From: Alphaproteobacteria bacterium MarineAlpha11_Bin1
Lineage (GTDB): Bacteria; Pseudomonadota; Alphaproteobacteria; MPNO01; UBA830
Assembly (NCBI GenBank): GCA_002937455.1
Contig: PTJZ01000015.1
Span: 1-42,870 of the forward strand
Length of the DNA: 42,870 nucleotides
Reading direction: 5' to 3'
Position numbers and translations under genes: made by a program. The notes under the pieces are model-generated. The model had not been told where the DNA came from. It worked only from the letters and a program-made list of their open reading frames with translations, and ran no database searches. Positions 435-35,178 of this stretch are shown here, piece after piece (the first letter of the stretch is position 1; every line of letters begins with the position of its first letter).

Positions 435-1361
435 TCAGACCGCTTTTTGGCGCGTCAGCTGTTTAAGCAGCCCCGCCCGCCGTAAGACACCGTCCAGCCG
501 CTTCTCGAGTTCTTTCGTTGCTGGAGCCATAGGGAGGCGATGTTCGTTTTTCGGCATGATCTTAAGTTTTTTCATCATATATTTCATAGCGATCGGGTTC
601 GTGTCGAAGAACACTGCTTGGTTGATTTCGAATAATTCGTAGTGAAGTTTCTGTGCTTTCTTAAGATTGCCAGCTGCTACGGCATCACACATTTGAGCTA
701 GTTTTTTTGGTTGCAGGTTGCCTACGGCGTTCATGAGTCCACACGCTCCCACGGCCATCATCGGATAGGATAAATCCTCCAACCCAACGAAAATACGGAA
801 ATCCATACCGAAATGGTCGAGACATTCGGACGCAAAACCCAAGTCGTCTACCGCATGTTTCATGCCGATAAAATTCGGGCAAGCCCTCGAAATTTGGTCC
901 AGCGTATCAAGGGTTACTGATACCGCAGCCCGACCGGGGATATGATAAATCATCCACGGTAACTTAGTTTGTTTCCCTAGCAGTTTGTAATACTCTACCA
1001 GACCTCTCTGCGGCGGACGGCTGTAATAAGGTGTAACGATTAGTAGTGCATCTGCGCCGGCCTTCTCCGCATGTTCGGTAAGAGCTAAAGTTTCTTGAAG
1101 ATTTTGTGACCCGGTGGCCGCGACGATAGTTAGCCTTCCGGCGGCAGCTTTGATGGCCACATCTACTATTCGATTACGTTCCTCAATCGTCAACGACGCA
1201 GGCTCTGATGTGGTTCCGTTGACTAGGATGCCATGTGACCCATTCTTGACCTGAAACTCAACCAGTCCGGCGTATGCCTTAAGGTCGACCTCCCCATTGC
1301 GGAATGGAGTGATTAGCGGTGGTATGGAACCACAGAGGAAATTTTTCGGCAATTTTATCAT
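435..1361 (-). CDS. DapA-family (dihydrodipicolinate synthase-like) lyase/aldolase
   Basis: This 308-residue protein is a TIM-barrel class I aldolase. It has the GTTSE motif at 49-53, the catalytic Tyr139 in YHIPGR, and the Schiff-base Lys168 in GMKHA. Members cleave or form pyruvate-linked C-C bonds. The family includes true dihydrodipicolinate synthases, N-acetylneuraminate lyases and hydratase-aldolases of aromatic degradation. Position behind a dioxygenase-like bicupin gene, a MarR gene and ubiD, all on the minus strand, argues for a catabolic aldolase rather than lysine synthesis. The ATG at 1361 has a GGGGAG box about eight bases upstream. The specific substrate cannot be read from the sequence. 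Confidence 0.88.
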   Translation of the reverse strand: MIKLPKNFLCGSIPPLITPFRNGEVDLKAYAGLVEFQVKNGSHGILVNGTTSEPASLTIEERNRIVDVAIKAAAGRLTIVAATGSQNLQETLALTEHAEKAGADALLIVTPYYSRPPQRGLVEYYKLLGKQTKLPWMIYHIPGRAAVSVTLDTLDQISRACPNFIGMKHAVDDLGFASECLDHFGMDFRIFVGLEDLSYPMMAVGACGLMNAVGNLQPKKLAQMCDAVAAGNLKKAQKLHYELFEINQAVFFDTNPIAMKYMMKKLKIMPKNEHRLPMAPATKELEKRLDGVLRRAGLLKQLTRQKAV

Positions 1362-1470: not shown

Positions 1471-2619
1471 TTATTCACCAGCTTGACGTAACTCTTCTGC
1501 GTTGGTTTCGAAACCCGAGTTGGCACCAAGAACAGACCAAGGGTGCTTTAGTTCCTCCTGCCAAAGTAGGCTCTCCATGAATATGTTTAGCGGCTGGTCT
1601 TGGACTGTCAGCTCGTAGACGGATTCGTCGTAGGATGCGTGATTGTGAATACCCCAGCCCGGTGCCGACAGCATTAGATCCCCAGCCTTCCACTCATAAA
1701 CTTTGCCTTCTACGGTGGATCGACCCGTTCCATGGAAATAATAGTTGATGGCCGACGAAACATGGCGGTGAGGGCGGTCAACGATTTTTGGCGGTCTAAC
1801 CGTCATTGTGGCAAAAAAGTTAGGTGTGGTGCCGTTGAACCGTGTAGTCATGGGATTAAACAGAAGGTAGAGGCGTCTTCCACGATAGTCAGAGCCCAGC
1901 GCGGTTAGCTTGTCCAGTTCCGCCTTAACATCTTCCCACGGCCAGTGCAGTGCATTGGAGTCCACAGATGCTGGGTTAATAAGCGTTTCGTATGGCATCA
2001 GCCAAGCACCATCATCGTTTAGTTGAAACGTGCCATAGGGGCTCTTGGATGTAGCATCTGCGGCGTCGGCTTCTGCGCGGGCTTTCTCTTCCGCAGCCTG
2101 TTTGTTAGCGGCATCTAAAAGATCCATCATCGGAGGTGGTTCCTCATCAATGATGTGGACATTCATTTTCTCTAGCAGAGGTGCATTAGAGTATGTCAGG
2201 CGCACGTGTAAATCTTTGGAATCATTTACGTGCCAGTAGGTGCCCATCGACGGAAAGTTATAGACATCGTACTCCCGGAAGGCGATTTTCTTACCGTTGA
2301 TTATGGAGTGGCCCTCGCCCTGAATGCAGAAATTCACTTGTGTAGAATTGTGCCGAATTGGGGATGTCTGTTCACCGGGCTTAAGCACCTCAATCGTAAC
2401 GCGAACTCCCGGATTCAGCCCGGGCCCTGCCCCAAGCTCCTGCCATCGTGGGTGAACGATGAGCGATTGTCTCCGTCCATTTTCAGGTCGCGGTTGATCC
2501 GCCAGGCGTGCTATTTCCTCGTCCATCTCTTCCTTGGAAATCAGGATAGGTTCCCATAGGTCTAATTCTTTCGGGTTTTTGAATCCTGTTCGGTCAATGA
2601 ATTTTGCATTTTGGCTCAT
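1471..2619 (-). CDS. Bicupin protein, gentisate 1,2-dioxygenase-like
   Basis: This 382-residue protein has two cupin barrels. The N-terminal one (about 75-150) carries RHNSTQVNFCIQGEG and a later Trp-His (YWHVND) segment. The C-terminal one (about 265-345) carries RPHRHVSSAINYYFHGTG and GIHNHASYDE, which supply His ligands for a mononuclear metal. Gentisate and 1-hydroxy-2-naphthoate dioxygenases share this layout and size, and they open hydroxylated aromatic acids with O2. An Ala/Glu-rich linker (about 165-190) separates the domains. AGGAG lies eight bases before the ATG. MarR and UbiD neighbours fit an aromatic acid pathway. The exact substrate is inferred only at family level. Confidence 0.8.
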   Translation of the reverse strand: MSQNAKFIDRTGFKNPKELDLWEPILISKEEMDEEIARLADQPRPENGRRQSLIVHPRWQELGAGPGLNPGVRVTIEVLKPGEQTSPIRHNSTQVNFCIQGEGHSIINGKKIAFREYDVYNFPSMGTYWHVNDSKDLHVRLTYSNAPLLEKMNVHIIDEEPPPMMDLLDAANKQAAEEKARAEADAADATSKSPYGTFQLNDDGAWLMPYETLINPASVDSNALHWPWEDVKAELDKLTALGSDYRGRRLYLLFNPMTTRFNGTTPNFFATMTVRPPKIVDRPHRHVSSAINYYFHGTGRSTVEGKVYEWKAGDLMLSAPGWGIHNHASYDESVYELTVQDQPLNIFMESLLWQEELKHPWSVLGANSGFETNAEELRQAGE

Positions 2620-2726: not shown

Positions 2727-3206
2727 CTAACCTTTCTCAGAGGCGAGATTGGCTCCCAATTTTTGCAATAGGTCGCGTAACTGAATGAACTCGTCGTCGG
2801 ATAGACCCTGTGTTGCAATGTTGTTCACTTCAATCGCAAGCGGCATTAGCTCCGATTTCATTTTACGGCCTTTCTCGGTGAGAAAAATATTGATTGTGCG
2901 GCGATCTTTGGAGTTACGAACTCTCTCAATCATGCCGCTACGGGCTAATAGTCGCAGAGCACTTACCGTTGTCGGTTCTGTTGTGCCGACACGCCGGCTC
3001 AATTCGCGCTGACTGAGTCCTTCTTCATCCCAGAGGGCCCGTAAAAAATACCACTGACCTGGGGTAATCTGGTGGGATTGAAGACGTGTACGGATAGCTC
3101 TCGCAAACATTAGATGCGCGTCGCGAATGAGGTAACCCGCACTATCTTGGAGCCGCAGGTTGATGCTAAATGCGGAGGCCTCGAACTTTGCGTGGGGAAG
3201 ATTCAA
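2727..3206 (-). CDS. MarR family transcriptional regulator
   Basis: This 159-residue protein has the MarR winged helix: an N-terminal dimer helix, the HTH (LSQRELSRRVGTTEPTTVSALRLLARSG, about 80-105), and a wing with the D-R-R-T signature (NSKDRRTINIFLT). MarR proteins are usually released from DNA by small phenolic or aromatic ligands. It lies between ubiD and the bicupin gene on the same strand, so it probably controls that set. The frame opens with TTG at 3206, with AGGGGG about six bases before it. Upstream at 3235-3279 there is a good promoter with an inverted repeat, consistent with self-control. Confidence 0.92.
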   Translation of the reverse strand: MNLPHAKFEASAFSINLRLQDSAGYLIRDAHLMFARAIRTRLQSHQITPGQWYFLRALWDEEGLSQRELSRRVGTTEPTTVSALRLLARSGMIERVRNSKDRRTINIFLTEKGRKMKSELMPLAIEVNNIATQGLSDDEFIQLRDLLQKLGANLASEKG

Positions 3207-3331: not shown

Positions 3332-4735
3332 TTACGGGAGATAATCCTCCAAATTGACGCCGGTATGGCCAAACGGCATCGCGGGGGCGAACCTTGACCT
3401 TGCATCCGCTTGAGTAACCGCCGGTTTGGTCGCGTCGATAATCACTTTCGTCCCGATCCGGTACATAGCACTCATCCCCGGTACGATGTCCGATACATTG
3501 TCCAAGGACCAGATCCTTGTATTAGGTATCTTCATTACGTCCTGAGAACCGTGAACGCGGGTTGTCATAGACCAGAATATCTGGCGAAGATCGGATGCGT
3601 CAATATCGTCATCCACTGCGATAGCGATCTTCGGGTGTAAATAAGGGCTAGACAATGCAGACATCAAGGCAGTTTTTGCTTGGCCTTCTACTCTAGGCCG
3701 GAGCTTCAAAACAATAGCCATAAGGCCTGAAATGCCAAGGCAGCGGACATCGAGCAGATCCAAGCCACCTTCCACATTTTTGAGATGGTCTGTTATAACT
3801 GTCTCGATACAGGTTCCGGTTATAGACTGAGTGTCTGTCATGGGGGCACCGCACTGCATAGCATAAAACATAGGATCCTTGCGGTGGGTGATTGCCTTTA
3901 CCTTAAAAATTTCGGTAGACCCCTCCATCGCGTATGTGCCGGTGGCTTCCCCGAAAGGCCCTTCTTCCACCGTGCCGTCAGGCAATACCTCTCCCTCAAT
4001 TATTATCTCCGCCTCGGCGGGGACTTCAATATCAATGGTTTCGCATTTTACCAAACGGACTGGATCGTCAAGCAGGGACCCCGCGACTTCTAGCTCGTCA
4101 AGCCCGTAAGACGAGGTGAATCCTGACGCGTAGTATATCGCCGGGTGGGCGCCAATTACCATCGCCACTGGCATCGGTTCGTTTCGTTGCTGGTACTTCT
4201 GATAAATTCTTAGTGCGTGACGTGGGCAAATTAGAAAGCCAGTCTGATCGGGACCTTGGATTTGCTGGCGGTGTATCGACATGTTGCGGATGCCAGTTTC
4301 CGGATCCTTAATTATCGCCATACCCGATGCGATATAGGGAGACGGGTCTTTCTCCGCATGCCAAAGTGCTGGGACCTTGGTTAGGTCGGCTGCACTACCT
4401 TTGAGAATAACTTCTTTAACTGGAGCCTTGTCTTTGTTCACTTCGACCGGTTCAATTTGGCGTTTTATCCGCTCTACCAACGTCGGAATCAAATCCTCTT
4501 CGCGGATACCGAGCGCGATTGACCATTTTCTCCTGTCGGTAATCACTTGGTTGACGATTTCCCAACCTGGAAACCCTCTGAGATTTGTGAATAGCGTAGA
4601 TTTACCAAGACGATCATATGCCTTCCAACCAATGGCGGAGACGTTCTTGTGAGGATCTACTTCCTTGGTAATACGGATCAACTCGCCTTGTTGTTCAAGA
4701 TTTGCTACGTGGGCTCTCAGCGATTGGTCGCGCAT
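3332..4735 (-). CDS. UbiD family decarboxylase
   Basis: This 467-residue protein is a full-length UbiD-fold enzyme. UbiD proteins use prenylated FMN to (de)carboxylate aromatic or alpha,beta-unsaturated acids. The N-terminal part (RAHVANLEQQGELIRI) and the EEGPFGEATGTY segment, which supplies the acidic active-site residues of the family, are present, as are NMSIHRQQ and the IDIEVPAEAEIIIEGE strand. I place the start at the ATG at 4735, behind an AAGGAA box, rather than at an ATG eleven codons upstream. No UbiX flavin prenyltransferase is in the window. It diverges from the nitrile hydratase operon across only 47 bases, which suggests shared control. Confidence 0.92.
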   Translation of the reverse strand: MRDQSLRAHVANLEQQGELIRITKEVDPHKNVSAIGWKAYDRLGKSTLFTNLRGFPGWEIVNQVITDRRKWSIALGIREEDLIPTLVERIKRQIEPVEVNKDKAPVKEVILKGSAADLTKVPALWHAEKDPSPYIASGMAIIKDPETGIRNMSIHRQQIQGPDQTGFLICPRHALRIYQKYQQRNEPMPVAMVIGAHPAIYYASGFTSSYGLDELEVAGSLLDDPVRLVKCETIDIEVPAEAEIIIEGEVLPDGTVEEGPFGEATGTYAMEGSTEIFKVKAITHRKDPMFYAMQCGAPMTDTQSITGTCIETVITDHLKNVEGGLDLLDVRCLGISGLMAIVLKLRPRVEGQAKTALMSALSSPYLHPKIAIAVDDDIDASDLRQIFWSMTTRVHGSQDVMKIPNTRIWSLDNVSDIVPGMSAMYRIGTKVIIDATKPAVTQADARSRFAPAMPFGHTGVNLEDYLP

Positions 4736-4782: not shown

Positions 4783-5094
4783 ATGAAGAAAAGCGTCAAC
4801 GATATCGGCGGAGAAAATTGGGGGCCGATTAATCTAAGTCAAAAGGAAACGCCAGAGTGGGCAAAACTGTCGACAGCGTTGCGCGGGGCGCTGGGCGAAA
4901 AAGGCGCAGGCCTCGTTAGCCTGCACGAGGGTCGCCGTGCCAGGGAAGAATTGAGCTATAATATCTATCATTCCCTTGGTTATTTTGAGATGGGGATGCA
5001 GGCGATATACGATATTTTGGTGCAAAAGGGTATTCTAACTGAAAATGAAGTTGAGGATCGTATTATAGCGATAAGAAATAACTCAGGACCGTAG
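4783..5094 (+). CDS. Nitrile hydratase beta-N-like small protein (probable accessory/activator protein)
   Basis: This 103-residue protein resembles the helical N-terminal half of a nitrile hydratase beta subunit. It has a degenerate D-I-G-G start, an Arg-rich helix (EGRRAREEL), then the Y-x-x-x-x-Y-F-E-x-x-x-x-A-I-Y-D-I-L-x-x-K-G segment that parallels the YFERW...LLEEKG helix of the next gene. Assembly factors of nitrile hydratase and thiocyanate hydrolase share this fold, so a cobalt-loading or chaperone role is likely. A second structural subunit is possible. It is the first gene of the operon. The ATG at 4783 follows GGGAG. The longer upstream extension of the frame would run into ubiD. 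Confidence 0.65.
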   Translation: MKKSVNDIGGENWGPINLSQKETPEWAKLSTALRGALGEKGAGLVSLHEGRRAREELSYNIYHSLGYFEMGMQAIYDILVQKGILTENEVEDRIIAIRNNSGP

Positions 5095-5144
5095 TTGAAA
5101 TACTTATCCCATCGACGCAATATGAGGCAAAAGAGGTAGAAATC

Positions 5145-5447
5145 ATGAACCAGCGTCAGCACGACATGGGCGGAATGGATGCAGGGCCTGTCGAGGATTC
5201 TGCTCATAATGCCGAACCTTGGGCCAAAATGATCACGTCACTTGCCGCCGCGATGCGCGAACATGATGTTATGCGCATTGATGAGTTACGCCGCGCACTG
5301 GAAGATCTGCCGCCCGAAATTTATGAGCAAGACTATTTTGAGCGCTGGTCGGAAGCCATGGTTAACCTTCTCGAGGAAAAGGGACTTTTAAGCCGGGACG
5401 AAGTTATCGGACGGATGGATTCAATAAAAGATAAGCTAGGAGCCTGA
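5145..5447 (+). CDS. Nitrile hydratase/thiocyanate hydrolase beta subunit, N-terminal half (split)
   Basis: This 100-residue protein starts with the hallmark HDMGGM (6-11) of nitrile hydratase beta chains. It continues with DELRRALEDLPPEIYEQDYF and ERW...LLEEKGLLSRDEV, the helical N-terminal domain that packs on the alpha subunit. It ends where normal beta chains (about 220 residues) go on into a beta barrel, and that barrel is encoded by the next gene two bases later. Thiocyanate hydrolase and toyocamycin nitrile hydratase are known to have the beta chain split this way. The enzyme is presumed cytoplasmic. Confidence 0.88.
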   Translation: MNQRQHDMGGMDAGPVEDSAHNAEPWAKMITSLAAAMREHDVMRIDELRRALEDLPPEIYEQDYFERWSEAMVNLLEEKGLLSRDEVIGRMDSIKDKLGA

Positions 5448-5449
5448 AT

Positions 5450-5737
5450 ATGCCCATTTTCAGTGTAGGAGAACGCGTGCGTATCAAGAACTCCCATCCA
5501 CCCGGTCATCGCCGAACACCTTTTTATGCGCGCGGCAAGACCGGGGTTGTTGAGCGCTACTGCGGAGACTTCAAGAACCCTGAAGAATTAGCTTATGGTT
5601 TTGACGGGACGCCTAAACGCGAGCTTTATCGCGTGCGGCTAGCGCAGATCGACATCTGGGATGACTACAAAGGGCCAGAAAGCGATACGCTAGACCTAGA
5701 AATTTATGATCATTGGCTTGAAAAAGCTGAAGGATAG
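5450..5737 (+). CDS. Nitrile hydratase/thiocyanate hydrolase beta subunit, C-terminal half (split)
   Basis: This 95-residue protein is the SH3-like barrel that forms the C-terminal half of ordinary nitrile hydratase beta chains. It shows FSVGERVRIKN, PPGHRRTPFYARGKTGVVE and ELYRVRLAQIDIW, all typical of that domain, whose Arg and Tyr side chains line the active-site interface. It begins with its own ATG two bases after the stop of the N-terminal half and is in a different frame from it. This is therefore an organised gene split and not a sequencing frameshift. Four bases separate its stop from the start of the alpha gene. Confidence 0.88.
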   Translation: MPIFSVGERVRIKNSHPPGHRRTPFYARGKTGVVERYCGDFKNPEELAYGFDGTPKRELYRVRLAQIDIWDDYKGPESDTLDLEIYDHWLEKAEG

Positions 5738-5741
5738 AGAA

Positions 5742-6383
5742 ATGAACAACGATGACCGCACCGCCCATGACCATACACATGAACATGACCATCCTGGTAC
5801 AACTCCCGATATAAATGAGACCGGTTATTACGAATTGATGGCCGAGGCGATGAAGGAACTACTTATAGAAAAAGGCGTGGTCAGCGCTGACGACGTGCGT
5901 CGCAATCTCGAATTTCTTGATAGTCGAGATCCGGTTGATGGCGGCCGCGTCATTGCGAAGGCTTGGACCGATCCGGATTTCAGGAAGCGCCTTCTAAGCA
6001 ACGGTACCACAGCAGTCCAAGAATTAGGCCTTACAATGGGTGACGCGGAATTAGTAGTCGTCGAAAATACTGACGACGTACACAATATGATTGTCTGTAC
6101 GCTTTGCTCCTGCTATCCGAGAACGTTGTTAGGGTTGCCGCCGGACTGGTACAAATCCAAGAGCTATAGGTCTCGTGCCGTCGTAGAACCGCGATTAGTG
6201 CTTAAAGAGTTTGGCACCCACGTGCCCGAAGAAAAAACTGTTCGGGTCCATGATTCAAATGCCGATATGCGTTACCTGGTTTTGCCACAACAGCCAGAGG
6301 GCACGGAAGGCTGGTCTGAAGAAAATCTAGCAAGAATTGTCAGCAGAGACGCCATGGTTGGGGTTGTTCTACCCCGAGTTTGA
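5742..6383 (+). CDS. Cobalt-type nitrile hydratase alpha subunit / thiocyanate hydrolase gamma-like subunit
   Basis: This 213-residue catalytic subunit has the metal claw CTLCSC at 119-124, followed by YPRTLLGLPPDWYKS. Thr in the second position of the claw is typical of cobalt enzymes (iron enzymes have Ser). The two later Cys are oxidised to sulfinic and sulfenic acids in characterised relatives. The C-terminal part (QPEGTEGW, IVSRDAMVGV) is normal for the family. The N-terminus is His/Asp-rich (HDHTHEHDH, 9-17), a trait I recall from the thiocyanate hydrolase gamma subunit and a plausible metal-handling tail. Start ATG at 5742 follows AAGGATAGAGA. The reaction is hydration of a nitrile to an amide, or of thiocyanate to carbonyl sulfide. 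The sequence alone does not decide between them. Confidence 0.93.
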   Translation: MNNDDRTAHDHTHEHDHPGTTPDINETGYYELMAEAMKELLIEKGVVSADDVRRNLEFLDSRDPVDGGRVIAKAWTDPDFRKRLLSNGTTAVQELGLTMGDAELVVVENTDDVHNMIVCTLCSCYPRTLLGLPPDWYKSKSYRSRAVVEPRLVLKEFGTHVPEEKTVRVHDSNADMRYLVLPQQPEGTEGWSEENLARIVSRDAMVGVVLPRV

Positions 6384-10326: not shown

Positions 10327-11823
10327 ATGAACCCGCCTGATTCTGCTGACAACTTCACTCTGATCGATGCCACGATCGCTGATATCCACGCTGCATATGC
10401 CGCCGGCACGCTGACCTGTCGGGCACTGGTGGAGGCGTATCTAGACCGCATCGAAAAGATTGATCGGGCGGGCGCAAAGATCAACTCAATCATTTCACTC
10501 AACCCGCGCGCGTTGGAACAGGCCGATGCGCTAGATGCATCTTATACGAAGTCCGGCCCTGTTGGTCCGCTGCATGGCATTCCGGTTGCGATGAAGGATC
10601 AGGGTGATGTGAGGGAGATGCCCACCACCATGGGTTCGGTCCTCTTTGATGGGCATATGCCGGAACGCGACAGTTTCGTCGCCGCGAAGCTACGCGACGC
10701 GGGCGCCATCTTCATTGCCAAGACTACTCTAGGAGAAATGGGCGCGGGCGACACTCACGGCTCGCTATTCGGCTCCACTGCCTGCGTCTACGACACCTCG
10801 CGAACGGCTGGTGGATCCTCTGGTGGGTCTGGCGCGGCAGTATCGGCCAACCTGGTCACGGTGGCCGTGGGGCAGGAGGGCTTCGCCTCGATCCGCCGCC
10901 CAGCGATCTGGAATGGGATCGTCGGTATGCGACCGACAGCGGGGCTAGTCAGTCGTGGCGGCGTCTATGCTGGCTGGCCGTCTACCAATGGTTCGCTTGG
11001 CCCCATGACGCGGACGGTGACAGACGCTGCTCGCATGCTTGACGTCATGCACGGTTTCGACGCTGATGATCCCATTACTGGTCGGGGAGTGGGGAAGGCG
11101 CCAGTCTCCTACGTTTCTGAATTGGGAGATGGCGGTATGGCCGGCAAGCGCATAGGTATCCTTCGGACTGTCATGGGCTATCACTCTGAGCCCGATTCAG
11201 ATGACTTTTACGCCGTTGATGCACTGTTTGACAATGCGGTTGCCGACCTGTCGAAGGCAGGGGCGGTGGTTGTTGATCCCGTTGAGATTCCGGGGATGAT
11301 AGACCTTTTGGCTCAGCGCTCTGCCGACGGTGCGGCCGAAGAGGAATCCTTCAAAATCTATATGGCGGGTAGTGCCAATCCGCCGTTTGATACGATGGAT
11401 GATGCTCGTAAAAATCCTAATTTTTCTGATACCTATCGCGGTGTGCAGACCCGATGGGCCGTCGATAAATCTCAAGAAAAATTCGCTGTCTATACTGTCG
11501 CGCGCGAAGAACTGATGACGCGCTTTTTGAAGGTGATGGCTGAGAACAAGCTGGATGCCATTGTCCATAAAGCAGTTGAACATACCCCCACCCTAATTGC
11601 GGATGGGACAGCGTCACCTTGGACCGATCAAAAGGGTGCGCCGCACCTGAACACCTTTTTAATATATGTTCCTAGCGTGGTTGTCCCCGCTGGGTTCACT
11701 GACGGTGGGCTTCCTGTGGGAATTACATTTCTGGGCCGCCCATATTCGGATGCAGAGATGCTAAGCCTCGCATACGGTTACGAACAGGTAACCGGACATA
11801 GACGGGTGCCGGAATTGGGATAG
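10327..11823 (+). CDS. Amidase (amidase signature family)
   Basis: This 498-residue enzyme of the amidase signature family uses a Ser-cisSer-Lys triad to hydrolyse amides to acid and ammonia. Lys90 (VAMKDQGD), the GGSSGGSGA loop (162-170, with the cis-Ser at 164 or 165) and Ser188 as nucleophile are present. The usual D-T-G-G-S-I-R stretch before the nucleophile reads GQEGFASIRRPA here, a variant in which the active Ser and Ile-Arg are kept. The ATG follows TTACGGAG. Nitrile hydratase 4 kb away makes it a candidate second enzyme of a nitrile-to-acid route, but they are not in one operon. Confidence 0.93.
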   Translation: MNPPDSADNFTLIDATIADIHAAYAAGTLTCRALVEAYLDRIEKIDRAGAKINSIISLNPRALEQADALDASYTKSGPVGPLHGIPVAMKDQGDVREMPTTMGSVLFDGHMPERDSFVAAKLRDAGAIFIAKTTLGEMGAGDTHGSLFGSTACVYDTSRTAGGSSGGSGAAVSANLVTVAVGQEGFASIRRPAIWNGIVGMRPTAGLVSRGGVYAGWPSTNGSLGPMTRTVTDAARMLDVMHGFDADDPITGRGVGKAPVSYVSELGDGGMAGKRIGILRTVMGYHSEPDSDDFYAVDALFDNAVADLSKAGAVVVDPVEIPGMIDLLAQRSADGAAEEESFKIYMAGSANPPFDTMDDARKNPNFSDTYRGVQTRWAVDKSQEKFAVYTVAREELMTRFLKVMAENKLDAIVHKAVEHTPTLIADGTASPWTDQKGAPHLNTFLIYVPSVVVPAGFTDGGLPVGITFLGRPYSDAEMLSLAYGYEQVTGHRRVPELG

Positions 11824-29223: not shown

Positions 29224-29928
29224 CTACTCCGCTGCCTGTGCAGGAGGATATGTAAGTTCAAGATGCGCCACGATCTCTTCAAGAACCATAACGTCTGCGT
29301 ATTTATGGTGCATATCGAAAAGGTTGATCTTGTGGGAAATTTCCGATCGATCGAAGACGCATTCTTCGGCAATTGTAGCGTGGTATCCGTACGAATAGGC
29401 GTCGACGACCGAGGCACGGACACACCCTGAAGTGCTCTCACCGCAAATGATCAAACTATTGACTCCCAGACGCGTGAGGTGTGCCACTAGAGGTGTTGAG
29501 TGAAAAGCACTCGCACGCTCCTTACGGACAACAATATCGTTATCTTGCGGTTCGAAAGCGGGATGAATATCCATCATGTTATCGCCGACATCATAGCCGG
29601 TTTGTCGATTGGTCGAACGCACCCTTCCTTTTCGAACCGACCCTGTGAGATAAATTATTGGGAGGGAGGCAGCGCGGCAGGCGGCAAATAGTTTTTTCGT
29701 CGGCTCGACCGCATCCCAGGCAAACTTACCGCACGAATTTGGGAATTCGTTAACCAGTTCTTCCGGATATTTTGTTGGGTCCCCTCGATAAACGAAGTTG
29801 TAGAGGTCAATAGCAAGTAATGCTGGCCGCTCGCCGACATATAAATCTCGCTGATACGGTTCGTATATCCTCATAACGTCTGGAGAGATGACGTCTTTCC
29901 AGCAATGATCCTCAAAGTACCTACCCAT
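29224..29928 (-). CDS. Cysteine hydrolase, isochorismatase / N-carbamoylsarcosine amidohydrolase-like
   Basis: This 234-residue protein has the catalytic Asp41 (AIDLYNF), Lys136 (RKERASAF) and Cys169 (ESTSGCVRAS) of the cysteine-hydrolase branch of the isochorismatase superfamily. That branch includes N-carbamoylsarcosine amidase, maleamate amidohydrolase and ureidoacrylate hydrolase. It should release ammonia or carbamate from an amide. The ATG at 29928 follows AAGGAAGGA. The frame upstream of it is probably untranslated. Neighbours suggest use in aromatic or N-heterocycle breakdown. Confidence 0.9.
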   Translation of the reverse strand: MGRYFEDHCWKDVISPDVMRIYEPYQRDLYVGERPALLAIDLYNFVYRGDPTKYPEELVNEFPNSCGKFAWDAVEPTKKLFAACRAASLPIIYLTGSVRKGRVRSTNRQTGYDVGDNMMDIHPAFEPQDNDIVVRKERASAFHSTPLVAHLTRLGVNSLIICGESTSGCVRASVVDAYSYGYHATIAEECVFDRSEISHKINLFDMHHKYADVMVLEEIVAHLELTYPPAQAAE

Positions 29929-30097
29929 AGAAAATCCTTCCTTCGTTCCTCTCAATTGTAGCGTTGATCTCGGCAAAGGGCGACTCGCCGTCCAGAAGGC
30001 ACCATGATAATGTGACAAATAGAGTATCAAACGGGTATAGCTGCTAACACTTTTCAGATTTACCTGACCACCCTTTACCTGATTTGCGCTTCATAAT

Positions 30098-31351
30098 ATG
30101 GCTCATGACATTCCAATTATCGTTCGGCCCTTCAAGGGGATGAGGCCTGTAACCGGACGGGCTGATGATATCGCCGCACCTCCTTATGACGTAGTAAATG
30201 TAGAGGAGGCGCGTTCGTTATCAAACGGAAAGCCGCATACCTTCTTTCACGTTTCTCGGGCAGAAATTGATCTGCCGCCGGGAACAGACCCGTATGCAAC
30301 TGAAGTCTATCAGACTGCGGCTGGTAATCTAAAAAATATGGAAGAATCAGGTATCTTAATCCGAGACACTGTACCCTGTTTCTACATTTACCGGATTACC
30401 GCCAATGGTCGATCCCAGACGGGCGTGGCTTTTTCTGCATCCGTGGATGCTTACAACCGAAATCAGATCAAGAAACACGAAATGACACGGCCCTCAAAGG
30501 AAGACGATCGGGTCCGACAGATAGACACCATCAACGCGATCACGGGACCTGTTCTAACGGTGCACCGCTCCCATTCCGAGCTCTCGGCTCTTATAAATTC
30601 TGCCTCCTCAGGAGTTCCTGAAGCTGTCGCTGCAGATGTGGGCGGGGCAAGACACGAGCTCTGGGTAGTCTCCAATCCGGATAAGGTTGATGCGATCTCC
30701 GCAGCCATAAACGGCATGGATGCGATCTATATAGCCGACGGTCATCATAGGTCTGCTGCTGCTGTGCGGGTAGCGGAGGCCCGGCGAAATGCAAACCCGG
30801 ATCATGATGGAACGGAACCCTATAACGGTTTTCTAGCCGTGAGTTTTCCCGATGATGAGTTGACTATCCTCGATTATAACCGGGTGGTTCGAGATCTAAA
30901 TGGTATGACCTCCGATGTTTTTCGAATGGAGTTATTAAAGTCATACAGTATTGAAATAGTATCTGCAGAAGTTCGTCCGCAGAAAGCGAAGACCTTTGGT
31001 ATGTATCTTGACGGGTCTTGGTCGCTAATCAGTCCTATCGGGCCGGAGAAAACAGAAGGCCTGATAGAAAGTTTAGACGTGCAGCTTTTATATCGTTCTA
31101 TCCTTTCCCCCTTGTTGGGCGTTGGGGATCAGAGAACAGATATCCGCATCGATTTCGTAGGGGGCTCTCGAGGTCCTGAGGAGGTTGCTAGGCGCGTAGA
31201 CTCCGGCGAAATGAAGGTCGGCTTCACGTTATATCCGCCATCCATAGCTGATCTGATGTCCGTTGCCGATGCAAACATGATCATGCCGCCTAAATCTACT
31301 TGGTTCGAGCCTAAGCTCGCCGATGGCATGATTTCGCTTCCGTTGGACTGA
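30098..31351 (+). CDS. DUF1015 family protein
   Basis: This 417-residue protein is recognisable as DUF1015 from its opening (RPFKGMRPV, AAPPYDVVN, FFHVSRAEIDLP), the KKHEMTRPSKEDDR motif, and YIADGHHRSAAA in the middle. Some members are known or suggested to be serine kinases, and genes of the family often sit near serine biosynthesis, which is not the case here. The conserved His and Glu clusters are present, so it is probably functional. The Shine-Dalgarno sequence before ATG 30098 is weak. It is convergent with the hydantoinase B gene, with only 12 bases between stops. Confidence 0.92.
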   Translation: MAHDIPIIVRPFKGMRPVTGRADDIAAPPYDVVNVEEARSLSNGKPHTFFHVSRAEIDLPPGTDPYATEVYQTAAGNLKNMEESGILIRDTVPCFYIYRITANGRSQTGVAFSASVDAYNRNQIKKHEMTRPSKEDDRVRQIDTINAITGPVLTVHRSHSELSALINSASSGVPEAVAADVGGARHELWVVSNPDKVDAISAAINGMDAIYIADGHHRSAAAVRVAEARRNANPDHDGTEPYNGFLAVSFPDDELTILDYNRVVRDLNGMTSDVFRMELLKSYSIEIVSAEVRPQKAKTFGMYLDGSWSLISPIGPEKTEGLIESLDVQLLYRSILSPLLGVGDQRTDIRIDFVGGSRGPEEVARRVDSGEMKVGFTLYPPSIADLMSVADANMIMPPKSTWFEPKLADGMISLPLD

Positions 31352-31363
31352 TTCTTTGAAATA

Positions 31364-33094
31364 TTACGATCGGAGTTTTTTGGTTGCATCGGGGTCGAGG
31401 TTACCGTCTTCATCACAAACGACACCGTAATCGTCGCGCGCGGAATCGACGCTGACATATCCTTGTCGGACCTCGTTAGCGACTGTTTCCGCCGGTCGTT
31501 TGTGTGGATCCCCAAACCCACCGCCGCCGCCGGAGCGAACTGCAAAAGCGTCCCCTCTCTTAATACGGGCAGTCAGTAGTTTAGCATTTGGGTAGTCCTC
31601 CTTCCACGTGCCATCTGCTCGCAAGACAACTGAGTTTCCTGAGGCTTCCTTGCCGCCGTTAAGCCCCCATGGTTTGCAATGCATGCGTTCGACTTGTGCG
31701 TTGAGCATGAAGTCGGATCGCGCCTGGACGGTATTTTCGCAGCCAAGGCCACCACGATATTCACCCGCGCCACCTGAATCCTCCCGTAAAGCGTAATTCT
31801 CTATTAGAAACGGATATTTTGATTCCAATTGTTCGGCTGGGCTGTTGTGGGTGTCACCGTCGTTGATACAGACGGTCGCGCTAATACCGTCCTCGGATTT
31901 TTTTGCCCCCCAGCCACCGCCGGTTGGTCCGATGAATGCGATATAAAACTCGTTGCTCTTAGGATTGATGCCATTGAGCATTGCAATAACAAGGTCGGCA
32001 TGATGGCCGGCGATAGTCCGGTCCGGAATCGCCGGCGTCAGCGCTTTGAAAACCGTATCAACAATCGTCATTGGGAATGTCATCCACCAACGCATTGGCG
32101 CAGGTTTGACTGCGCTTACGACTCGCCCAGGCGGAACGATCGCGGTTAAGTTACGGAAAGATCCGTCATTAATCGGATAATCGGTGGGTGAGGTAATACA
32201 TTTAAAAGCGACCTGCGAGCAGGCATACCCAGTAGTTATACCGGAATTATAGAAACCGCGTACTTGTTCCGCGACATCCGATAAATCGACAGTCATTTCA
32301 TCGCCTTCGACAATCACTTTAACCCGTATCGGGATGCGGTCCGAAATGCTTACCCCATCATCATCCATATAGGAATTTGCCTCATAGACGCCGTCAGGTA
32401 TGGATAACGTACGCGACCGGGCGGCGCGTTCTGATTGGTCCATGATTTCGGAGATGGACGCTGCAACTTGCTTGCGGCCATATCGTTTAACCAGTTCAAG
32501 GTAACGGCGCTCGCCGGTAGTAATAGCTGTTATTTGGGCCCTGAGGTCTCCCATCGCACGGTCTGGTAACCGGACGTTCGCGCGTATGATGTCAACGATC
32601 TCATTGTTAACTTTGCCTTCGCGCTGATATTTAACAATCGGAATTTGTAGGCCTTCAGAGTAGATATCTGTCGTTATACCGTCCAAAGTACCTCCGATGT
32701 CAGGCCAGTGGGCCATGCAACATGCGAATCCGATTAGTTCATCATCGAAAAAGATAGGGATCGAGAACGTTAAATGGTTCAGATGGCTGCCGGTGACATA
32801 TGCGTCATTCGTGAGCAGGATATCACCCTGCTTTATATTCTCTGGACCGTAGTGTTCAAGTTTCGCCTTGATCGTCTCTGCCATACCTCGGATGAACATA
32901 GGTAACCCGAGGCCGATGGAGATCGTTTCTCCTTTTTCAGTAAAAAGCCCCACCGTAAAGTCTAACGCTTCGTATATAATCATATTATAGGCGGTGCGCA
33001 TCAGGTTAGACTTCATCTCCTCCGTTATCGCGATAACGCCATTGCGGACGATCTCGGTAACGACGGGGTCTGAGCTTGCGATCGAAGAGTTCAT
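31364..33094 (-). CDS. Hydantoinase B / oxoprolinase family, B subunit
   Basis: This 576-residue protein is a full HyuB-type subunit: ITEEMKSNLMRTAYN near the start, MAHWPDIGG, NSPAEQLESKYP, and the Gly-rich AVRSGGGGGFGDPHKR close to the end. With HyuA it forms ATP-dependent amidohydrolases (N-methylhydantoinase, 5-oxoprolinase) or, in related complexes, acetone or acetophenone carboxylase. Its ATG at 33094 overlaps the hydantoinase A stop by four bases. The substrate is not defined by sequence. Confidence 0.94.
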   Translation of the reverse strand: MNSSIASSDPVVTEIVRNGVIAITEEMKSNLMRTAYNMIIYEALDFTVGLFTEKGETISIGLGLPMFIRGMAETIKAKLEHYGPENIKQGDILLTNDAYVTGSHLNHLTFSIPIFFDDELIGFACCMAHWPDIGGTLDGITTDIYSEGLQIPIVKYQREGKVNNEIVDIIRANVRLPDRAMGDLRAQITAITTGERRYLELVKRYGRKQVAASISEIMDQSERAARSRTLSIPDGVYEANSYMDDDGVSISDRIPIRVKVIVEGDEMTVDLSDVAEQVRGFYNSGITTGYACSQVAFKCITSPTDYPINDGSFRNLTAIVPPGRVVSAVKPAPMRWWMTFPMTIVDTVFKALTPAIPDRTIAGHHADLVIAMLNGINPKSNEFYIAFIGPTGGGWGAKKSEDGISATVCINDGDTHNSPAEQLESKYPFLIENYALREDSGGAGEYRGGLGCENTVQARSDFMLNAQVERMHCKPWGLNGGKEASGNSVVLRADGTWKEDYPNAKLLTARIKRGDAFAVRSGGGGGFGDPHKRPAETVANEVRQGYVSVDSARDDYGVVCDEDGNLDPDATKKLRS

Positions 33095-35178
33095 AAGGCA
33101 TCGCTCCCAATGGTGATGTTCAGATTGCCATAACTATCGACTACGAGCGTATCGCCTGGATGAAGCACGGTGGTCGAGGCGTGTTCCTCGATCAAAGCGG
33201 GTCCATTGATTGTGTTGCCCGCTAATAGGCAAGTTCTATCCCAAGTGTCGGTATCAACTTTTTCGTGGCCGAACCGAACCTGTCGCATCCCAGTATGAGA
33301 ACCGTCTGATGGCGTTTCTCCGCCGCGGTCGATGCGTGTAAGTTCTGGTTTTTCGAGCATACCCGTCACCGTCACTCGAAGGCTTACGATTTCGCTCCGT
33401 TCCTGCGGTGCGCAGGTTCCGTAACGTAGGTCATGAACGGCATCGAAACGTTCTTTGATCCCGGCTCGATCTTCATTGGTAAAAAGATCTGCGGAGAGAT
33501 CTACTGTCACGGAATGTTCCTGTCCGACATAGCGCATATCTGCAGCACGGCTTACTACAATCCGCTCGGGCGTGGTTGATACTCTCTTGATTTCGGAGAT
33601 ACCCTCCGCCTCCAACTCATTAAAAACCGTTTCTAGTTCCTCGAAATTTGCATCGGAAAGTCGGGAAAATCGTGAACGGACATAGTCATAGCGAAGGTCC
33701 GAAAAAAGCATCCCAAAAGCTGAAAAATGCCCGGGTGAATAAGGTATAATGACTTTTTGGATTCCCATTTCGCGTGCAATATTGCAAGCGTGTAACGGCC
33801 CTGCACCGCCATAAGCGACCATCGCGAAGTCGCCTGCATTGAGCCCTCGTTCTGTAGTTACGGCCTTGACAGCATGGGACATGGAAGTAACCGCAATGCG
33901 GAGAATACCCTGCGCTGCATCCGCTGTTTCGAGGTTGAGAGGAATGGCTACTTTTTCATTGATTGCTTCGCTAGCTAAGGCTAAGTCGAGCGTCATTTCG
34001 CCTCCCAAGAAACGATCCGGGGATAAACGTCCCAGATATACGTTGGCATCTGTTACTGTGGGGATACGGCCGCCCTGGCCATAACATGCCGGTCCCGGCT
34101 GGGCTCCCGCGCTTTGCGGTCCCACTCGCAGACCCCCCTCGTCGGCGACGCGAGCGATCGAGCCGCCACCGGTGCCTACTTCGAAAATATCCATCATGGC
34201 GATCTGAACGGGAAGCGCGCGTTCGTATCCACCAATCAACGCACTTCCGGTAGTGAGAGCTTGGCCTTCATGAATGACGCCTGCCTTGGCCGTTGTACCA
34301 CCCATGTCGAAGGCGATGGCGTTTTCAAGTCCGATAGCATCGCAAAGGGCCTGAGTGCCGATAACCCCCGCGGCCGGTCCTGACTCAAGCATACGTACGC
34401 ACTGACGTTGCGCCTGATCGCCGTCATACAAACCGCCAGTAGATTGGACGACCAAGAATGATCCATCGAACCCATCTTTGCGGATGCGGTCATCAATGCC
34501 TGCGATATAGCTTTTTACTTTTGGCCCGATGTAAGCATTTGCGACCACTGTGGAACACCGCTCGAACTCACGGTATTCTTGGCTCAGTTCATGCGAGGTT
34601 GACACGAATACGTCTGGTAGTTCCTCCTCCACGATCTGCCTTACGCGCAGTTCGTGCGCAGGATTTGCGTAGCAGTGTAGTAGCAGGATTGCGACTGCCT
34701 CCACCCGTTCGAGACGCAGCCGGGCACATGTTTCACGGACGCGGTTTTCGTCGAGCGGTTTGTATATTTCACCTTCAGCGTAGAGACGTTCCTCAACCTC
34801 AAAACGCAATGCGCGTTCGACCAGCGGTTCATGTTTCTGAAAGAAAAGATTATATGCGTCGGGCCGGTTCACGCGGCCGATCTCATATATGTCTCGGAAA
34901 CCCTCTGTAATCAGTAGAGCGGTTCTGGCGCCCGTTCGTTCCAGCATTGTATTAATGGCTACGGTCGACCCGTGGAGAAAAAGGCTGGCCTGTGGAAAGG
35001 CTATTCCGGTTTTGTCCACGCCTTGTGCTATACCGTCGATCAGGCTGTCAGGAGTGGAGAGGGTCTTGCCAAAGACCAGACGTCCGTCCGATGGGTCAAA
35101 TGCGGCGACATCGGTAAAAGTGCCGCCGATATCGGCGGCTAAACGAATGCGCGATCCTATAGCATTGCATTCGGTCAA
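33091..35178 (-). CDS. Hydantoinase A / oxoprolinase family, A subunit
   Basis: This 695-residue protein is the ATP-binding subunit with an actin-like fold: AADIGGTFTDVAAFD at 14-28, LLHGSTVAINTMLERTG (near 70), FDMGGTTAKAGVI, and GGAGPLHACNIAREMGI. It phosphorylates or activates the amide or carbonyl substrate that subunit B acts on. The frame opens with TTG at 35178, eight bases after a near-perfect AGGAGG. No ATG is available in that position. No third (gamma) subunit gene, as found in acetone carboxylase, is adjacent. Confidence 0.94.
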   Translation of the reverse strand: MTECNAIGSRIRLAADIGGTFTDVAAFDPSDGRLVFGKTLSTPDSLIDGIAQGVDKTGIAFPQASLFLHGSTVAINTMLERTGARTALLITEGFRDIYEIGRVNRPDAYNLFFQKHEPLVERALRFEVEERLYAEGEIYKPLDENRVRETCARLRLERVEAVAILLLHCYANPAHELRVRQIVEEELPDVFVSTSHELSQEYREFERCSTVVANAYIGPKVKSYIAGIDDRIRKDGFDGSFLVVQSTGGLYDGDQAQRQCVRMLESGPAAGVIGTQALCDAIGLENAIAFDMGGTTAKAGVIHEGQALTTGSALIGGYERALPVQIAMMDIFEVGTGGGSIARVADEGGLRVGPQSAGAQPGPACYGQGGRIPTVTDANVYLGRLSPDRFLGGEMTLDLALASEAINEKVAIPLNLETADAAQGILRIAVTSMSHAVKAVTTERGLNAGDFAMVAYGGAGPLHACNIAREMGIQKVIIPYSPGHFSAFGMLFSDLRYDYVRSRFSRLSDANFEELETVFNELEAEGISEIKRVSTTPERIVVSRAADMRYVGQEHSVTVDLSADLFTNEDRAGIKERFDAVHDLRYGTCAPQERSEIVSLRVTVTGMLEKPELTRIDRGGETPSDGSHTGMRQVRFGHEKVDTDTWDRTCLLAGNTINGPALIEEHASTTVLHPGDTLVVDSYGNLNITIGSDAL

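Follow-up and report, generated by a model that had tools for sequence, protein, structure and literature searches.

A probable three-subunit cobalt nitrile hydratase operon led by a second beta-N-like protein, a possible open-pocket partner of the same alpha subunit

In the family of nitrile hydratase (NHase) and thiocyanate hydrolase (SCNase), a threonine in the claw motif C-T-L-C-S-C means that the metal is cobalt, and work on two SCNase arginines reportedly shows that gamma Arg136 and beta Arg90 set the selectivity of that enzyme. The original prediction for the operon analysed here had named SCNase and toyocamycin NHase as known enzymes with a split beta chain, and the available portions of one paper extend that list by the three-subunit enzyme of Streptomyces canus (PMC7329996). 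They describe AnhD, the S. canus beta-N protein, as both a subunit and a cobalt and self-subunit-swapping chaperone acting via AnhD2A, state that its authors found no activator gene in the S. canus genome, and list acetamiprid, thiacloprid and "BN", presumably benzonitrile, as nitriles that it hydrates (PMC7329996). Given that AnhD does both jobs, an additional beta-N protein could either act as the chaperone in its place or supply another pocket.

The window, a 42,870-nt stretch of DNA, holds four genes that we call X, BN, BC and A, lying head to tail with gaps of 50 nt (X-BN), 2 nt (BN-BC) and 4 nt (BC-A), and all four frames are intact, each with a start and a stop (Table 1). They had been predicted to form a cobalt-type operon of the NHase/SCNase family with an extra beta-N-like leading gene, and the Pfam matches agree: A matched NHase_alpha (264.5 bits, cut-off 27.2), BC matched NHase_beta_C (68.4 bits, cut-off 27.7), and both BN (60.5 bits) and X (42.5 bits) matched NHase_beta_N (cut-off 21.5). 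The cobalt claw reads C119-T-L-C-S-C124 and the His-rich N-terminus of A, also part of the prediction, reads HDHTHEHDH. Beta-N and beta-C are thus separate genes beside alpha, the arrangement that defines the three-subunit split-beta type. Partner arginines from beta accompany the claw, the second of them being predicted from its alignment with P. putida beta residue 149, the presumed second claw arginine. Among the 30 proteins scanned with Pfam, which cover the window short of its far end, only X was of beta-N type besides BN. The beta-N profile was also matched weakly by the N-terminal part of A (E 0.022), which might hint at shared ancestry. A promoter and terminator scan stayed at chance level (2 promoter-like signals versus 2.5 expected; 3 terminator-like signals versus 1.7 expected).

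Table 1. Features of the operon, its neighbours and the Y loci. Positions are those of the window unless a locus is named.
Feature	Position	Strand	Remarks
X, extra beta-N-like protein, lineage II	4783..5094	+	103 aa, intact frame
X, claw-type Arg51	4933-4935
X, Gly71	4993-4995		beta Trp72 position
BN, beta-N half, lineage I	5145..5447	+	100 aa; NHase_beta_N and signature table
BN, Leu48			SCNase beta Arg90 position
BN, claw-type Arg49	5289-5291
BN, Trp68
BC, SH3-like beta-C half	5450..5737	+	95 aa; NHase_beta_C and alignment
BC, Arg22	5513-5515		aligned to residue 149 of P. putida beta chain
A, alpha subunit	5742..6383	+	213 aa; NHase_alpha, claw list, ScnC alignment
A, claw CTLCSC	6096-6113
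A, Arg127	6120-6122		SCNase gamma Arg136 position
UbiD-family decarboxylase	3332..4735	-	divergent neighbour of operon
MarR-family regulator	2727..3206	-
Double-cupin protein	1471..2619	-	weakly like gentisate and 5-aminosalicylate dioxygenases
DHDPS-family aldolase/lyase	435..1361	-
Amidase-signature amidase	10327..11823	+	candidate step after amide product; near operon in L001, L003 too
Isochorismatase-fold homologue	29224-30030		23 kb from operon
Y loci (11)	L081:5053-6091; L082, L083, L120-L126, L132

A genome-contig search with A gave 95 relatives, the nearest being alphaproteobacterial metagenome assemblies, several apparently from marine projects by name, and the claw could be read in all of the best 80 of 95. 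Three positions past the final cysteine of the claw, 30 of these 80 carry Arg (L001-L029 and L032), 49 Trp and one (L049) Phe, so that the Arg-type signature is CTLCSC-Y/F-P-R, with mostly Trp at that Arg in ordinary relatives. By domain search, beta-N and beta-C were separate genes in 28 of the 30 Arg loci; of the other two, L018 has beta-N fused to alpha and a separate beta-C, and L004 is cut by a contig end. Among the 50 non-Arg loci, 47 have a fused beta, two a split beta (L030 and L038) and one no visible beta (L036). The two split exceptions carry Trp, which makes the rule that a split beta implies Arg false; they apparently represent a second, independent split. A claw-with-Arg pattern, which also admits Ser, was matched in 63 of 385 genomes of the class (backwards control 0 throughout the table). 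Among the matches listed, 30 class-level loci, with L163-L167 coming from genomes already in the set, read Y-P-R in every case and have separate beta-N and beta-C genes (25), beta-C only (4), alpha only (1) or a fused beta (0).

After masking of the diagnostic residue, an alpha tree of rows selected from 106 alpha domains separated 31 Arg-type rows from 17 others at one branch (bootstrap 100, SH-aLRT 99), a division also seen in a quick unmasked tree of 66 rows (support 99). ScnC of SCNase falls among the Arg-type rows: its claw region in PDB chain 2dd4_C is CTLCSCYPR, the Arg being residue 136, which is replaced by Trp in the variant chain 3vyg_C. Also Arg-type are L170, an operon on a Streptomyces plasmid that encodes beta-N, beta-C, alpha, aquaporin and a nickel/cobalt transporter in this order, and two operons on alphaproteobacterial plasmids in which beta-C comes first, alpha second and beta-N last. 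A topology with the SCNase-like rows outside all other Arg-type alphas was not rejected (p-AU 0.0676), so we make no claim for a nested position of SCNase. Taken together, the sequences compared indicate that a split beta accompanies a whole Arg-marked clade that includes thiocyanate hydrolase, and the phylogeny suggested as a check placed A inside this split-beta clade and outside the ordinary two-subunit one. Fusions of beta-N to the alpha N-terminus occur twice in the SAR116 contig L018 (5668-6961 and 8441-9427) and twice in G005 (L084 and L085), with beta-C separate or not seen nearby.

The beta-N tree, with 59 rows chosen from 180 beta-N domains plus ScnB over 99 columns, contains a lineage I (support 92/81) of the window BN and its like, and a lineage II (97/94) of X, the sole beta-N proteins of sister trios, and the stand-alone proteins Y described below. 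Forcing X together with activators (p-AU 0.011), with P15K-like rows (0.00111) or with lineage I (0.038) gave low values; grouping with either the sole lineage II proteins (0.157) or Y (0.425) was not rejected, and its nearest kin within lineage II may be either. The P15K-like rows, which are the fourth gene of SCNase-like operons (T. thioparus P15K itself lies outside the set), are sister to the SCNase-like beta-N (100/98; 99 in an earlier tree). X retains D-x-G-G together with the claw-type arginine. This motif is complete at the aligned position in 93 of 94 X-family proteins versus none of 37 activator-position and none of seven P15K-like proteins, with D-x-G-G elsewhere near the start in two of the 37. 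The activator model TIGR03889 gave no match for X at E 0.1, and scored 89.9 bits (cut-off 46) for the control activator L031. The structure prediction for X rose from pLDDT 55.8 with 21 alignment rows to 90.2 with 81 rows, and the predicted model folds like a beta-N chain and matches ScnB; Foldseek alone gave a best E of 2e-3. The candidates of a known activator or a P15K-like protein are thus ruled out by the tree and the D-x-G-G motif and, judged by these features, X is not of a known activator type. This narrows, without settling, the earlier question of whether X is an assembly factor or a fourth subunit.

The short, adjoining frames could suggest that the beta halves or X come from an ordinary beta gene that has decayed or been misassembled. 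However, the order X-BN-BC-A recurs in L001, L002 and L003, and in L005 with X truncated by the contig end, which excludes an assembly artefact. Moreover, pN/pS was 0.07-0.21 over 24 comparisons (four genes in six pairs among the window and L001-L003), with synonymous sites saturated in 17 of the 24, which suggests purifying selection on each of the four genes. Beta-N and beta-C also sat on separate polypeptides in all 29 readable Arg-type loci from the best 80 of 95 relatives, and no fused beta occurred in the 30 class-level Arg-type loci. The repeated split order and the pN/pS values rule out a frameshift or decay of a fused beta gene, the chance of any decay or misassembly is in our estimation negligible, and the predicted split of beta into two intact genes stands. 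Whether the substrate is a nitrile or thiocyanate was a further question of the original prediction. The split beta, the Arg127 of A at the gamma Arg136 position and the shared alpha clade with ScnC would all suit a thiocyanate hydrolase whose genes have been reordered. On the other side, A fell short of the SCNase gamma model TIGR03887 (215.4 bits, cut-off 291.45), while the alpha of the Nocardia relative L020 reached 390.7, and narrowly passed the NHase alpha model TIGR01323 (254.2, cut-off 249.85). The beta Arg90 position is Leu in BN and Gly in X, in contrast with Arg in 8/8 SCNase-like BN; elsewhere it is Leu or Met in 16/16 lineage I BN, Ser, Thr or Gly in 12/12 sole lineage II BN, and Gly (82) or Ala (6) among 94 X-family proteins. 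Nor does a P15K-like gene adjoin the operon. A rearranged SCNase is consequently improbable, and thiocyanate as a substrate unlikely, which narrows the question in favour of nitriles, though the gamma Arg136 equivalent is present. With just one of SCNase's two pocket arginines and a score below the SCNase cut-off, the enzyme is classed here as a three-subunit nitrile hydratase, in the architecture of S. canus AnhD-AnhE-AnhA. BN, BC and A very probably constitute a cobalt enzyme of this split-beta type that converts nitrile to amide.

UbiD directly adjoins the operon in the window and in L001, L002, L003, L131, L133 and L135, and the MarR, cupin and DHDPS genes accompany it in the window, L003, L131 and L133. 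In the PDB, UbiD is most similar to 6h6v, a furan-dicarboxylate decarboxylase. A Meth_synt_2-type gene, assigned by Pfam for L129 and by similarity for the other loci, lies between the UbiD and beta-N genes in L127, L128, L129 and L136, and such a gene directly precedes beta-N at L129:4938-5969, L136:2746-3795 and L137:277-1608. In the 27 genomes from G003's order, matches to alpha occurred in 25 (several of them weak and partial), to beta-C in 24 and to beta-N in 26, genome completeness not being given; G017, G018 and G020 had one match each. G021 and G028 hold a UbiD-linked beta-N/alpha pair without an adjoining beta-C together with a lineage II trio that has the only beta-C found, and at L131:6524-7495 and L133:5033-6194 UbiD-linked beta-N and alpha likewise have no beta-C beside them, the only beta-C found in each genome being in another trio. 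All 13 genomes with lineage I also have lineage II, which is no evidence of a link because lineage II occurs in 26 of the 27 anyway.

The same order contains 12 beta-N-like genes without an adjoining alpha or beta-C. Eleven of these (Y; 65 relatives found) directly precede, on the same strand, the gene of an isochorismatase-fold hydrolase, with a gap of at most 11 nt or overlapping frames; at L081, F420 biosynthesis genes lie upstream of Y. The twelfth gene (L134:5876-7493), whose beta-N-like product is divergent, follows an amidohydrolase gene in the same orientation. In the window, the isochorismatase-fold homologue lies near hydantoinase A and B genes (29224-35178), suggesting an N-carbamoyl amide pathway.

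The best explanation overall, to which we give even credence, is a cobalt nitrile hydratase of BN, BC and A with X as a second beta-N partner. More specifically, and with slightly less confidence than that, we propose that X is an open-pocket beta-N that would dock on the same alpha in the position of BN, the two pockets being exchangeable. A would carry the claw, and BN Arg49 and BC Arg22 (the latter as the counterpart of P. putida beta residue 149) would hold its oxidised cysteines while the C-N triple bond is hydrated to an amide. In the BN seat, X would direct its own arginine to the claw, so that BN would give a closed pocket (Leu48, Trp68) and X an open one (Gly50, Gly71), and one alpha would serve both, where some sister genomes may use two enzymes for the same end. 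The substrate may be an acidic or heteroaromatic nitrile feeding the amidase and the UbiD decarboxylase, a route from nitrile through amide and acid to a decarboxylated product being conceivable. We lean slightly towards this second-pocket role, since the dedicated types read lack the complete claw-facing signature that X retains, and since the pocket residues of X are small, as in the sister enzymes with lineage II as their only beta-N. More doubtful is the general form of the idea, namely that one alpha with two exchangeable beta-N chains would have two non-equivalent pockets, either combined within a single hetero-oligomer or alternating through changes in expression, and that beta-N would be a free-standing claw-partner module, duplicated and put to new uses, among them the one next to an isochorismatase-fold hydrolase.

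X might alternatively be a dedicated cobalt-loading, self-subunit-swapping chaperone, the dual job of AnhD having been divided after duplication so that BN is structural and X loads alpha. This reading is a close rival, if somewhat less probable: the AnhD2A complex reported in the available text offers a precedent (PMC7329996), the gene in fourth (P15K) position of the SCNase-like operons of Nocardia and Mycobacterium groups as sister to the beta-N of those operons, and a PF21006 search in G001, G002 and G003 gave only X, BN and Y. Against it, X has the D-x-G-G motif missing from the activator-position and P15K-like proteins and groups with neither, and three genomes have a trio with a single beta-N. 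Y points in another direction, in that X may belong, like Y, to a partner enzyme (an isochorismatase-fold hydrolase or another pathway enzyme) and link it to the hydratase, for example for amide channelling. Eleven of the 12 stand-alone genes directly precede such a hydrolase, whose best PDB match at L083 is N-carbamoylsarcosine amidohydrolase, and homologues lie in the window and about 4 kb from the trios L009 and L139. However, the twelfth gene adjoins an amidohydrolase gene instead, the two pocket positions of Y (Gln and Arg, 11/11 each) are unlike those of X, and the window homologue is too far off and too close to the hydantoinase genes to be coupled to X. A partner-enzyme role for X is therefore unlikely.

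A single Arg-marked clade would unite thiocyanate hydrolase with numerous split-beta hydratases from bacteria both marine and other, which opens the change of substrate to stepwise study, with one arginine and then two. X and BN may be the outcome of a natural duplication by which the two functions of the single S. canus beta-N, as reported, were either parted or doubled, and a few small subunits with two beta-N pockets could serve enzyme engineering. Among the matches listed from the open-licence literature, in the portions available, we found no treatment of the Arg-type clade, the second beta-N or the UbiD linkage.

Compared with known systems, the window operon shares the alpha family, the claw and the claw arginines with ordinary two-subunit cobalt-type NHases (NhlE/P14K-type activator), which differ by their fused beta chain, by a Trp following the claw in almost all those read, and by an activator of another clade. 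Thiocyanate hydrolase ScnB-ScnA-ScnC (2dd4) has in common with it the split beta, the claw followed by Y-P-Arg and the alpha clade, and the X model resembles ScnB; in contrast, the window enzyme lacks the second pocket arginine and fails the SCNase score, and X is unlike P15K and leads its operon. Toyocamycin NHase (ToyJKL) is also a three-subunit enzyme, for which the published descriptions, in the parts available, name three genes and no fourth beta-N (PMC12648386, PMC7329996). The S. canus operon AnhD-AnhE-AnhA, likened here through the accessible text of its description, has one beta-N only, and the Streptomyces plasmid operon of the same order is Arg-type. The S. canus operon encodes a cobalt enzyme in the window's order of beta-N, beta-C and alpha, and its anhD primer as printed reads M-A-R-I-N-D-V-G, like the start of X (PMC7329996).
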